Translations under genes and position numbers: made by a program
Shown here: one piece after another, positions 36,394-40,617 of the stretch
How positions within the stretch are numbered: position 1 is the first letter of the stretch
Layout: every line of letters begins with the position of its first letter
Source: Yoonia maricola
GTDB lineage: Bacteria > Pseudomonadota > Alphaproteobacteria > Rhodobacterales > Rhodobacteraceae
Assembly: GCF_002797915.1 (NCBI RefSeq)
Contig: NZ_PGTY01000002.1
Coordinates: forward strand, 310,001-374,000
Direction: 5' to 3'
DNA length: 64,000 nucleotides
The notes under the pieces: model-generated
Seen by the model: only the letters and a program-made list of their open reading frames with translations
Database searches by the model: none
What the model was told of the DNA's origin: nothing

Positions 36394-36422
36394 GCTGCGG
36401 GCGGGCGCGTTCCGCCCGTAGC
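36394..36422 (+). promoter_or_regulatory. pufA-pufL intercistronic mRNA hairpin
   Basis: GCTGCGGGCGG (36394-36404) pairs with CCGCCCGTAGC (36412-36422), eleven pairs with one G-U, around a 7-base loop. No T-run follows. Hairpins at this place in Rhodobacter protect the pufBA segment from 3' decay, giving more antenna than reaction-centre mRNA. Confidence 0.8.
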
Positions 36423-36496: not shown

Positions 36497-37327
36497 ATGG
36501 CACAGCTCAGCTTCGAGAGAAAATACCGGGTCCGTGGCGGGACATTGGTAGGCGGTGATCTGTTCGACTTTTGGGTGGGGCCATTTTACGTTGGCTTCTT
36601 CGGGGTTACGACGTTCTTTTTCGCCGTCCTTGGGACGATATTGATTTTTTACGGGGCCAGCCAAGGCCCCACGTGGAACCCGTGGTTAATATCCATTGAC
36701 CCGCCGCCGCTTGAGTATGGCTTGGGTGCTGCACCGCTCATGGAAGGCGGCCTTTGGCAGATCATCACGATCTGTGCGATCGGCGCATTCGTCAGCTGGA
36801 TGATGCGCGAGGTTGAGATTTGCCGCAAACTGGGCATTGGCTATCACGTGCCCTTTGCCTTTGGCGTCGCGATCTTTGCCTATGTAACGCTGGTGGTCAT
36901 CCGACCCGTTTTGCTAGGCGCTTGGGGCCATGCGTTCCCATATGGCATCTTCAGCCACCTCGATTGGGTCAACAACGTGGGCTATGCTTATGGTAACTTC
37001 CATTACAACCCCGCGCATATGATCGCGATCACGTTCTTTTTCACGACCACGCTTGCACTTGCGCTGCACGGTTCCTTGGTGTTGTCAGCCGTGAACCCGC
37101 CAAAGGGCCAAGAGATCAAGTCACCTGATCATGAAGATACGTACTTTCGTGATTTGATCGGCTATTCGATCGGGCCACTGGGGATTCACCGCCTCGGCCT
37201 GTTTCTGGCGCTGAACGCTGGCTTCTGGTCTGCGATTTGTATCGTGATTTCTGGCACCATCTGGTTCGATGAATGGATCGTCTGGTGGGATTGGTACTAT
37301 GAACTCCCTTGGTGGGTTGATCTGTAG
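36497..37327 (+). CDS. pufL: photosynthetic reaction centre L subunit
   Basis: 276 residues from ATG 36497 ([20 protein letters not shown]), with GGAG at 36485-36488. Five membrane helices are evident. Key segments include [35 protein letters not shown] (bacteriochlorophyll His) and [19 protein letters not shown] with an iron-ligand His region. Length equals other L subunits with short C-termini. The frame extends upstream to 36434 without homology. Confidence 0.97.
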
Positions 37328-37340
37328 GAGGATATGAAAA

Positions 37341-38267
37341 ATGGCTGAATATCAAAACATCTTCACACAGGTTCAAGTACAGGGGCCGGCCGAAATGGGC
37401 CTGCCCGGACCTGATGGGACTGCGATTGATCGCGGCACCACCACTGGGTTCTCAAAACTTGCGGGCCTATTCGGGAACGCACAGTTGGGGCCGATCTATC
37501 TGGGTTCCTTCGGGGTCATCTCGCTGGCGACAGGTCTGATCTGGTTTGTCATGGTCGGTTTGTCCTTCTGGGCGCAGGCTGACTATAATCCGGCGATTTT
37601 CCTGCGCGATCTGTTCTGGCTCTCGCTTGATCCGCCTTCACCGGGCTATGGGTTAGGTATGCCACCCATGAATGACGGCGGGTACTTTATGATCGCGTCA
37701 TTCTTCTTGCTGATCTCTGTGATCACGTGGTGGGTGCGGACATATCTGCGGGCCGAAGCACTCGGCATGGGCAAGCATGTGGCATGGGCGTTCGCCTCTG
37801 CGATCTGGTTGTTCCTTGTCTTGGGTCTGTTCCGTCCGATCCTGATGGGCGACTGGTCTGAAATGGTGCCTTATGGTGTCTTCTCGCACCTTGATTGGAC
37901 GAACCTGTTTTCGATTACATATGGCAATCTGTTCTACAATCCGTTCCACGCCTTGAGCATTGTGTTCCTTTATGGTTCTGCCCTGCTGTTTGCGATGCAC
38001 GGTGCGACGATCCTTGCGGTCAGCCGTTTCGGCGGTGAACGCGAGATCGAACAGATCGTTGACCGCGGTACTGCGACCGAACGTGCCGCACTCTTCTGGC
38101 GCTGGACCATGGGCTTTAACGCCACGATGGAAGGTATCCACCGCTGGGCGTGGTGGTTTGCAGTTCTGACAACGCTGACAGGCGGTATCGGGATCCTGTT
38201 GACCGGTACGGTTGTTGATAACTGGTTTGTCTGGGCGCAGCAGCACGGCTATGCGCCGCTGAACTAA
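37341..38267 (+). CDS. pufM: photosynthetic reaction centre M subunit
   Basis: 308 residues, [20 protein letters not shown] opening, five membrane helices, [20 protein letters not shown] (special-pair His region), and [20 protein letters not shown] with an iron-ligand His. TAGGAGGATATGAAAA precedes the ATG. It forms the reaction-centre core with PufL. Confidence 0.97.
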
Positions 38268-38275
38268 GGAGAGAG

Positions 38276-38512
38276 ATGATGAAAAACGATAACATCCTCG
38301 ACATGAGCGAAAAGAGCAGGCTGACCGCCGATATCACTCTCTTAATGCTTAAAGGGGCCGGTTATGCTGCGGTTTTTGTTTTGGCAGTTTGGTTTGTGAT
38401 TGCCGCCATGGCATTCATTGGCCGTATCCTTCCGGAACAAAGCCGTGAAACGCCGGATCCGATCAACCGGTCATCGCTGGTGATTGAGGTCGAAGAAGTC
38501 GTTCACGTGTAG
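38276..38512 (+). CDS. pufX: PufX-like reaction centre/LH1 ring protein
   Basis: 78 residues directly after pufM. A single helix follows [20 protein letters not shown] and ends FIGRILPEQ. Rhodobacter PufX has the matching pattern of MMKGAGWAGG, a hydrophobic helix and VGRMLP. The Gly-containing helix start and the GRILP exit are conserved; overall similarity is low, as usual for PufX. Two ATG codons (38276, 38279) follow GGAGAG. PufX leaves a gap in the LH1 ring for quinone exchange. No pufC cytochrome gene is present after pufM. Confidence 0.85.
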
Positions 38513-38521
38513 TGAGATTGG

Positions 38522-38674
38522 AACAGGCGGCGCGCGACGCACCGCCTGTTTCATACGCCATCGGGCTACCCTCCCTGGCTGGCCCGATATGGGGTGAGAA
38601 CCCCAGTTCCCTTCCTGTTGGCTACAGGAGAACTAGCGTCGCAATCGGGTTACACCCTTTTGCGGCGCTTTTTT
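38522..38674 (+). ncRNA. structured puf operon 3' UTR, candidate PcrX-like small RNA
   Basis: Between pufX and dxs five hairpins follow one another: AACAGGCGG/CCGCCTGTT (38522-38550), ATCGGGC/GCCCGAT (38560-38588), GGGGT-GAGA-ACCCC with a GNRA tetraloop (38591-38604), TCCTGT/ACAGGA (38613-38629), and a terminator (38636-38674). In R. sphaeroides a small RNA, PcrX, is processed from the puf operon 3' UTR and tunes puf expression. Position and structure fit an equivalent here. A dxs leader regulator is the alternative. Confidence 0.5.
38636..38674 (+). terminator. intrinsic terminator of the puf operon
   Basis: GCGTCGCAA (38636-38644) pairs with TTGCGGCGC (38660-38668), one G-U pair, followed by six T. 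The dxs start is 20 bases beyond. Confidence 0.88.
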
Positions 38675-38694
38675 CATATCACAAAGGTGCTGAG

Positions 38695-40617
38695 ATGACC
38701 AATCGCCCACATACGCCATTCCTCGACAGCATTGCTGGCCCTGCCGATATTCGCCGGATGAACGACATGGCCATTGCCAATCTGGCCGATGATGTGCGGG
38801 CCGAGGTGATCTCGGCGGTGTCCCAAACGGGGGGGCATTTGGGGTCGTCGCTGGGTGTGGTTGAACTGACGACAGCGATCCATGCGGTCTTTGATACGCC
38901 GCGCGATAAGCTTGTTTTCGACGTTGGGCACCAGTGTTATCCGCATAAGGTGCTGACCGGACGGCGCGACCGTATTCGGACCTTGCGCCAAGAAGGCGGG
39001 TTGTCCGGCTTCACGAAGCGCGCAGAGAGCGACTATGATCCTTTTGGTGCCGCGCATTCAAGCACCTCTATTTCTGCGGCTCTTGGGTTTACTGTGGGGC
39101 GCGACATGGGCATGCCAACGGGCGATGCGATTGCCGTGATTGGTGACGGGTCCATCAGCGCGGGCATGGCCTATGAGGCGCTGAACAATGCAGGCGCAGA
39201 GGGCCGTCGCTTGTTTGTGATTCTCAACGACAATGAGATGTCGATCGCCCCACCTGTGGGGGCAATGTCGAAGTATCTGTCGGGCCTTTACGCCTCGCCC
39301 ATGGGTGAGTTGCACAAGATGGCCGAAGGGTTTGAGGCCGCTTTGCCCGGCCCGCTACGGGACCACGCGCGCCGGGCGCGCAATCTGGTGACGGGGATGC
39401 AGACCGGTGGTTCAGGGACGTTGTTTGAAGAGCTTGGTTTTTCTTATATCGGCCCGATTGATGGCCATGACATGAGCCAGCTTTTGCCAGTCTTGCGCGC
39501 AGCGCGGACCCGCGCAACAGGCCCTGTCTTGATCCACGTTTGCACGACCAAGGGTAAGGGCTATGCCCCAGCCGAGGATAGCGCTGATTGCGGGCATGGT
39601 GTGTCCAAATTCGATGTCGCGACTGGGGCGCAGGCGAAATCGAAACCCAACGCGCCCAGCTATACCAAGGTCTTTGGTTCTGCTCTGACGACCGAGGCGC
39701 AGATGGACCCCAGCATTGTGGCGGTCACCGCCGCGATGCCTTCGGGTACTGGCGTTGATATCATGGGCGCGCGGTTCAAGGACCGCGTGTTTGATGTGGG
39801 CATCGCCGAACAGCATGGTGTCACCTTTGCCGCCGGGATGGCGGCGAGTGGGCTGAAGCCGTTTTGCGCGATCTATTCGACCTTCCTGCAACGCGGTTAC
39901 GATCAGGTGGTTCATGATGTGGCCTTGCAAAACCTGCCCGTGCGTTTCGCAATTGACCGCGCCGGGCTGGTCGGTGCCGATGGGCCGACCCATGCGGGGG
40001 CCTTTGATATCGGCTATATGAGCGCCTTGCCGAATATGGTCGTGATGGCGGCCGGGGATGAGTTGGAACTGATGCATATGGTGCGCACCGCTGCGGCCTA
40101 TGACGAAGGGCCGATTGCCTTCCGTTATCCACGCGGCGAAGGGGTGCGGATTGAGCTGCCCGAACGGGGTAACCTGATCGAGATCGGCAAAGGCCGGATT
40201 GTGCAGGAAGGGTCTGACGTGGCGATCCTGTCTTTTGGGGCGCATCTGGCGGAATGTCGGAAGGCGTCAGAGAAACTGGCGGTCCAAGGTGTCTCTACGA
40301 CGATTGCAGATGCGCGATTTGCCAAACCACTGGATCGCGCGCTGATCCGGCAATTGCTGCGCAACCACAAAGCGCTGATCACGGTTGAGCAGGGTGCGCA
40401 GGGCGGCTTTGGTGCGATGGTTTTGCATGATCTGGCCAACGATGGCCTGCTGGATGGACGCTGCCAAGTACGGACGATGACGCTGCCCGACCGCTATATT
40501 GATCACGCGTCGCCGGATGCGATGTACGCGGATGCAGGGCTGACGGCGGTGGATATTGCGGCGACTGCGATGCAGGCGGCGGGGATTGAAGTGAAGCGGG
40601 TTGAGGTGGGGGTTTGA
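38695..40617 (+). CDS. dxs: 1-deoxy-D-xylulose-5-phosphate synthase
   Basis: Thiamine-diphosphate enzyme that condenses pyruvate with glyceraldehyde 3-phosphate, the first step of the MEP isoprenoid pathway. 640 residues from ATG 38695. Motifs: [14 protein letters not shown] (catalytic His region, about 47-60), [15 protein letters not shown], the cofactor motif [19 protein letters not shown] (about 149-167), and the transketolase region MPSGTGVD and [18 protein letters not shown]. Placement after puf, separated by a terminator, is typical of Rhodobacter-like clusters and links precursor supply to photosystem synthesis. The frame is open from 38512, but that part is the structured UTR. Confidence 0.97.

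Follow-up and report, generated by a model that had tools for sequence, protein, structure and literature searches.

The window analysed here, a 64,000-nucleotide stretch of the Yoonia maricola genome, carries the end of a puf operon, where pufX is separated from the start of dxs by a spacer of 182 bases (Table 1). Folded as RNA, this spacer reaches −92.1 kcal/mol, as compared with −59.3 kcal/mol (SD 4.25) for 200 dinucleotide shuffles, none of which is equally stable (z = −7.72). This confirms the five consecutive hairpins (HP1 to HP5) that the initial annotation had placed downstream of pufX. The last of them, together with a run of six T that ends 20 bases before the dxs ATG, makes up the terminator, which had been called perfect; position and T run were as described, but the stem (GCGTCGCAA/TTGCGGCGC) contains one G·U pair. 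HP5 was absent from the output of a simple terminator scan, which permits only loop sizes of 3 to 8. A four-pair closure is also predicted, between CGCC at 38556-38559 and the Shine-Dalgarno GGTG of dxs at 38686-38689, and is common in the folds of the genus. A coding role for the spacer was rejected, since the dxs frame is open in just 10 of 30 genus untranslated regions (UTRs).

Table 1. Features at the end of the puf operon in the window, with the basis of each assignment
Feature	Position	Strand	Basis or remark
PufM gene	37341-38267		Pfam-based gene check
pufX, last gene of the puf operon	38276-38512	+	PF11511, E = 4.3e-36; PDB PufX chains
puf 3' UTR RNA, supported as a homologue of the PcrX source; entire spacer up to dxs	38513-38694	+	Fold z −7.7; 21/48 pairs covarying; R1 match of 163.7 bits (the window sequence is itself part of R1)
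Hairpin 1 (HP1)	38519-38553	+	Fold; covarying stem
HP1 apex, GCGCGACGC	38532-38540		Contains GCGACGC, complementary to the HP5 5' arm
Hairpin 2 (HP2)	38560-38588	+	Fold; covarying stem
C-rich apex of HP2, CCCTCCCTGG	38569-38578		
Hairpin 3 (HP3), GAGA tetraloop, GGGGU-GAGA-ACCCC	38591-38604	+	Fold; covarying stem
HP4 region	within 38605-38634		Fold
Near-invariant core, TTCCCTTCCTGTTGGCTACAGG	38607-38628	+	Pyrimidine linker 38607-38613 and hairpin 4 (HP4) 38614-38628
Hairpin 5 (HP5) and T run, intrinsic terminator	38635-38674	+	Fold; hairpin 38635-38669, T run 38669-38674
dxs, next gene	38695-40617	+	Pfam; ATG at 38695

Within the genus, a search for PufX was positive in 32 of 56 genomes, and the best 30 of these 32 were aligned as 30 UTR rows. 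The spacer keeps a length of 177-187 nt across these rows, though PufX identity drops to 50%; the 22-base core (UUCCCUUCCUGUUGGCUACAGG) is exact in 29 of them, and all 30 have a run of at least five T. RNAalifold applied to 25 rows gave 48 consensus pairs, 21 of which show changes on both sides. In the same 25 sequences, 97.1% of paired cells are retained as pairs, against 91.7% after shuffling, and the covariation score is 0.250 against 0.151, a value reached by none of 500 shuffles. Four of five covariation measures exceed all 500 shuffles, while the fifth, the number of further pair types, is matched by one. Hairpins 1 to 3 drift in sequence with their pairing retained, and the linker and hairpin 4 hardly vary. 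The GAGA tetraloop singled out by the initial annotation is indeed present in HP3 but is not conserved, the loops of the genus being UUCG in 10 cases, GAGA in two, GAAA in two and others in the rest. Loss of the first four hairpins in close relatives, which had been named as evidence against a conserved RNA, was not seen, as the covarying pairs testify.

The core also tracks PufX from genome to genome. At least 25 genus genomes among the matches listed, all of them PufX-positive, contain a 17-base segment of it without a mismatch. Of the remaining seven PufX-positive genomes, four are exact by UTR comparison, and G028, G029 and G030 have one or two mismatches. The exact 17 bases occur in none of 23 PufX-negative genomes (a set without G052) among the matches listed, and the genome of the window itself holds one full copy of the core. 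Separately, PufM in one genus forms a group with about 91-100% and a group with about 74-77% identity to the window, with L029 at 85% (the loci of these PufM groups being L013, L014, L016, L017, L022, L025-L028, L030 and L110). The UTR is alike throughout, and from these sequences two PufM groups with similar UTRs are a possible sign of pufLM exchange.

PcrX, a small RNA of the Rhodobacter sphaeroides puf 3' UTR, was reportedly described by Eisenhardt et al. in 2018. The portions of the literature covered here report that RNase E cuts this UTR to yield PcrX, which targets pufX and destabilises pufLMX with Hfq (PMC9438474, PMC8307010, PMC8625941, PMC10253847) in an Hfq-dependent manner (PMC9438474). 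Within this coverage, outside which the original PcrX paper lies, PcrX is described from R. sphaeroides only, and we found no report of the conservation presented here. The PufX of genome G106 is 100% identical to R. sphaeroides PufX over 72 residues taken from a PDB chain. We took G106 for the reference strain because a published RNase E site at coordinate 1,982,393, in the 5' region of pufL (PMC6238624, in the part covered), falls in the AU-rich pufL start on its PufX contig.

A covariance model built from the genus UTRs (R1), which rewards the core, matches the R. sphaeroides puf 3' UTR (L111) with 65.6 bits (E = 1.8e-15), so that the comparison proposed by the initial annotation came out positive. 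As in the PcrX source, positions 38513-38694 occupy the 3' UTR of the puf operon (from PufX, PF11511, to Dxs) and form a series of hairpins that ends in a Rho-independent terminator (HP5 plus six T), and the two cores are identical at 21 of 22 bases. By place, hairpin series and core, the Yoonia spacer is thus supported as the counterpart and homologue of the R. sphaeroides UTR, with the difference that processing into PcrX is reported in R. sphaeroides and the Yoonia UTR is known here from its sequence. As to whether such a counterpart would be conserved or independently evolved, the homology with R. sphaeroides and the retention of hairpins 1 to 4 in relatives argue for conservation.

We then considered the family. 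Among 80 loci chosen by PufM similarity, 35 have the exact core and 58 have it within five substitutions; in 10 of the remaining 22, a portion of it is still recognisable where expected. One of the 80, L081, stops 344 bases after pufM. When R1 was run on 100 chosen loci, 92 matched at E = 1e-4 or better and at the same place (11 of these being sequences of the model), three matched more weakly and five not at all. Because the locus sets overlap (L110 has the UTR of L013, and L029 is the site of L036), these locus counts do not equal genome counts. With strict filters, R1 matched 118 of 394 family genomes, one copy each (117 genera). PufM is present in 166 of the 394, including 116 of the 118 R1-positive genomes; the other two, which are the sole R1 matches among 228 pufM-negative genomes, score 22 bits only. 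Of the 50 pufM-positive genomes left over, a broader model (R2) matched 15 with E no higher than 0.05; 11 of these matches lie 289-1239 bases downstream of pufM, three are on other contigs, and for G264 no pufM position was listed. The RNA is therefore found by R1 or R2 in 127 of 166 pufM-positive genomes and measured next to pufM in 117 (106 by R1, 11 by R2), while in 39, G264 included, neither model gave a match shown to be puf-linked.

The distance between pufM and the RNA falls into two classes among the 106 R1 cases measured: 229-405 bases in 70 genomes, and 1147-1312 bases, the distance expected with pufC instead of pufX, in 36. From the first class, 40 of 46 additional R1 genomes with pufX spacing were taken in. 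For the second, 40 loci were examined (35 of the 36 with pufC spacing and five of 10 unmeasured R1 genomes), and in 39 of them the frame ending at the RNA carries three or four CXXCH motifs, which we take to be the mark of the PufC cytochrome. The last gene of the long-spaced loci is thus pufC, not pufX, and dxs was found in 39 of the 40. In these 40 R1-found loci, the core is exact in 23, has one substitution in six and was not found in three. Together, the two spacing classes and the CXXCH frames at the RNA show that it goes with the end of the puf operon regardless of the final gene. The proposal of a PcrX-like RNA therefore holds as regards homology but was too narrow in scope, the wider RNA family following pufC as well, unlike the pufX-linked PcrX.

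In 60 diverse family sequences, 17 of the 23 pairs of HP3 to HP5 change on both sides, and all five covariation measures lie above all 500 shuffles. All 13 terminator pairs covary and four of the five HP4 pairs never vary, an invariance of core and HP4 that is partly built in because this alignment (A3) required a core within three substitutions. A fairer measure of the core comes from the loci selected by PufM similarity and, R1's bias towards the core aside, from the 40 found with R1. Run on 337 genomes of the class, R2 gave 11 matches, two in the genus, one in the family (G110, 24.4 bits) and eight elsewhere, at 22-27 bits; a core within five substitutions was found in none of eight loci examined from the nine non-genus matches. 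Sulfitobacter, Planktotalea and relatives (L038-L042, L045, L046, L048) have rearranged puf 3' ends: CCTGTTGGC, or something close to it, can pair with a downstream GCCAACAGG or similar stretch to enclose a long hairpin. A T run is not visible there.

Rfam 15 contains no family that reaches its gathering score at the UTR. Its sole such match in the window is an FMN riboswitch (RF00050) at the start, positions 20-163, with 116.8 bits, and it gave nothing at gathering score in the loci L149, L001, L153 and L070. The plasmid antisense RNA ctRNA_pGA1 (RF00236, Rfam type antisense) resembles the element in that a small hairpin precedes the terminator hairpin with its U run, but its 29.5 bits at 38606-38679 are below the gathering score of 45, and it was rejected. 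In R. capsulatus, according to the portions of the literature covered, an intercistronic hairpin stabilises the pufBA mRNA. The likeness lies in hairpin-based control of puf mRNA segments; the difference is that this hairpin sits between pufA and pufL, a place where the window has a strong 12-pair hairpin of its own (36394-36422). We know of no invariant unpaired core in the R. capsulatus hairpin.

Which partner the core might have was approached by pairing prediction. Against the puf mRNA, no 30-nt bin ranked with the best sites in more than 10 of the 44 loci. Against the puf gene starts, with a shuffled-core control and 45-47 loci per gene, no consistent complementarity beyond composition was found: the mean z is +0.94 for pufB, −0.57 for pufA, −0.04 for pufL, −0.30 for pufM and −0.24 for pufX, pufA being the sole faint lean. 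The prediction suggested by the initial annotation, against pufB, pufA and pufL, thus gave no consistent site. A perfect hairpin in pufL (GGGGCC-AGCCAA-GGCCCC, window 36653-36670) has a loop exactly complementary to the UUGGCU loop of HP4. AGCCAA is kept in 16 of 20 genus relatives, and the AGCCAG or AGTCAA of the other four would, by our reading, still pair with the HP4 loop through G·U. Kissing between the two loops was nevertheless rejected, several genera with the same HP4 loop having different codons there, and it is kept as a lead only. Since this core is retained in pufC-type operons as well, a general role of pufX as its partner is unlikely.

What lies downstream of the puf genes is a conserved structured RNA, with one match per genome, tied to puf and ending in an intrinsic terminator. 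We put at about two in three the probability that the spacer is the puf 3'-end RNA that is the source of PcrX, conserved as a family and a candidate regulatory RNA. RNase E would cut the puf mRNA in a linker upstream of HP3 or HP4, and the terminator hairpin with its U tail would shield the 3' piece and offer a site for Hfq. Recognition would fall to the pyrimidine linker (UUCCCUUCC), which is exposed, and to the HP4 loop UUGGC; together these may damp puf or other photosynthesis transcripts at times of strong puf transcription. That the stems drift while the unpaired linker and loop stay fixed suggests recognition of a partner, beyond a mere barrier to decay, and in general this partner is probably not pufX.

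The main rival is a purely cis-acting stabiliser, in which the hairpins serve as a barrier to 3' exonucleases and as a terminator, stabilising the end of the pufLM(X/C) mRNA with no free regulatory RNA. This would fit stems that covary amid sequence drift and an HP3 whose loop alternates between UUCG and GNRA types, as expected of a device for stability, and hairpin-based segmental stability is established for puf mRNA in the portions covered of PMC10253847 and PMC6238624. However, it leaves unexplained why an unpaired linker and HP4 loop should be near-invariant next to a terminator whose 13 pairs all vary (a contrast drawn from a sequence set chosen with a limit on the core), and a PcrX RNA does exist in R. 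sphaeroides (PMC9438474, in the part covered). We consider a role in cis alone unlikely.

A clade-limited switch is less probable still. In Yoonia and near relatives, the HP1 apex GCGACGC could pair with the terminator 5' arm GCGUCGC and delay the terminator, tuning read-through from puf to dxs. GCGACGC is found in the first 60 nt (HP1 apex) of 27 of the 30 genus rows, and GCGTCGC in all 30. Among 163 distinct loci, there are 48 (29%) in which the HP1 region and the HP5 arm of the locus itself share an exact complementarity of at least seven bases, as compared with 10.5% when the arms are those of other species. A 7/7 partner, counted with G·U allowed and not always at the apex, is present in 38 of 45 loci that were hand-picked after the pattern had already been seen, against 4.7 for shuffled heptamers (maximum 13), and in L105 and L034 both sides have changed together. 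Seven of the 45, however, have no partner (L029, L049, L092, L119, L125, L193, L194), and in four of these the arm is altered and ends in CAC or CAT; the sequences, being related, do not count as independent, and the longer helix is HP5 itself. Outside the hand-picked set, the pairing occurs in 24 of 118 loci against a shuffled rate of 15%, and as a family-wide feature it is not supported. The complementarity belongs to the Yoonia clade only, which sets it apart from the PcrX source.

That the element is chiefly a leader or attenuator of dxs, with HP5 controlling read-through into that gene, is already disfavoured and very improbable. The short distance from T run to dxs, the predicted GGTG-CGCC pairing and the regular presence of dxs in pufC-type or unmeasured loci speak for it. 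Nevertheless, the core and HP5 persist without an adjacent dxs in L029/L036 (one sequence) and in L120, which indicates that the RNA belongs to puf and not to dxs. Consistent with this, the genus and family searches found no RNA with dxs in genomes without puf, the two 22-bit matches aside; the PufX-negative genus genomes had no exact core among the matches listed, and pufM-negative family genomes gave just those two matches. Finally, HP4 is also an inverted repeat in DNA (CCTGT-N5-ACAGG), but its binding by a transcription factor is scarcely credible given that the asymmetric linker and loop show about the same conservation as the repeat, that the helices on either side covary at the RNA level and that the element persists without dxs.

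Returning to the regulatory RNA at the puf 3' end, a broader picture is possible, and we offer it tentatively, at somewhat less than even odds. The element may be an old and widespread riboregulator of phototrophic Rhodobacteraceae whose 22-base core is held by one invariant partner, either a protein or some RNA that is not pufX; the pufX account of PcrX would then be a special case. Yoonia may have added a second layer, in which the HP1 loop captures the terminator arm and couples puf output to dxs. The match of this one-copy RNA, with its nearly unvarying core, in 118 genomes, after pufX or pufC, makes PcrX recognition testable by comparative genetics, and covariance models are now available with which the RNA can be found. 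Our findings suggest an early origin in the family for control of reaction-centre amount through the end of the mRNA that encodes it.
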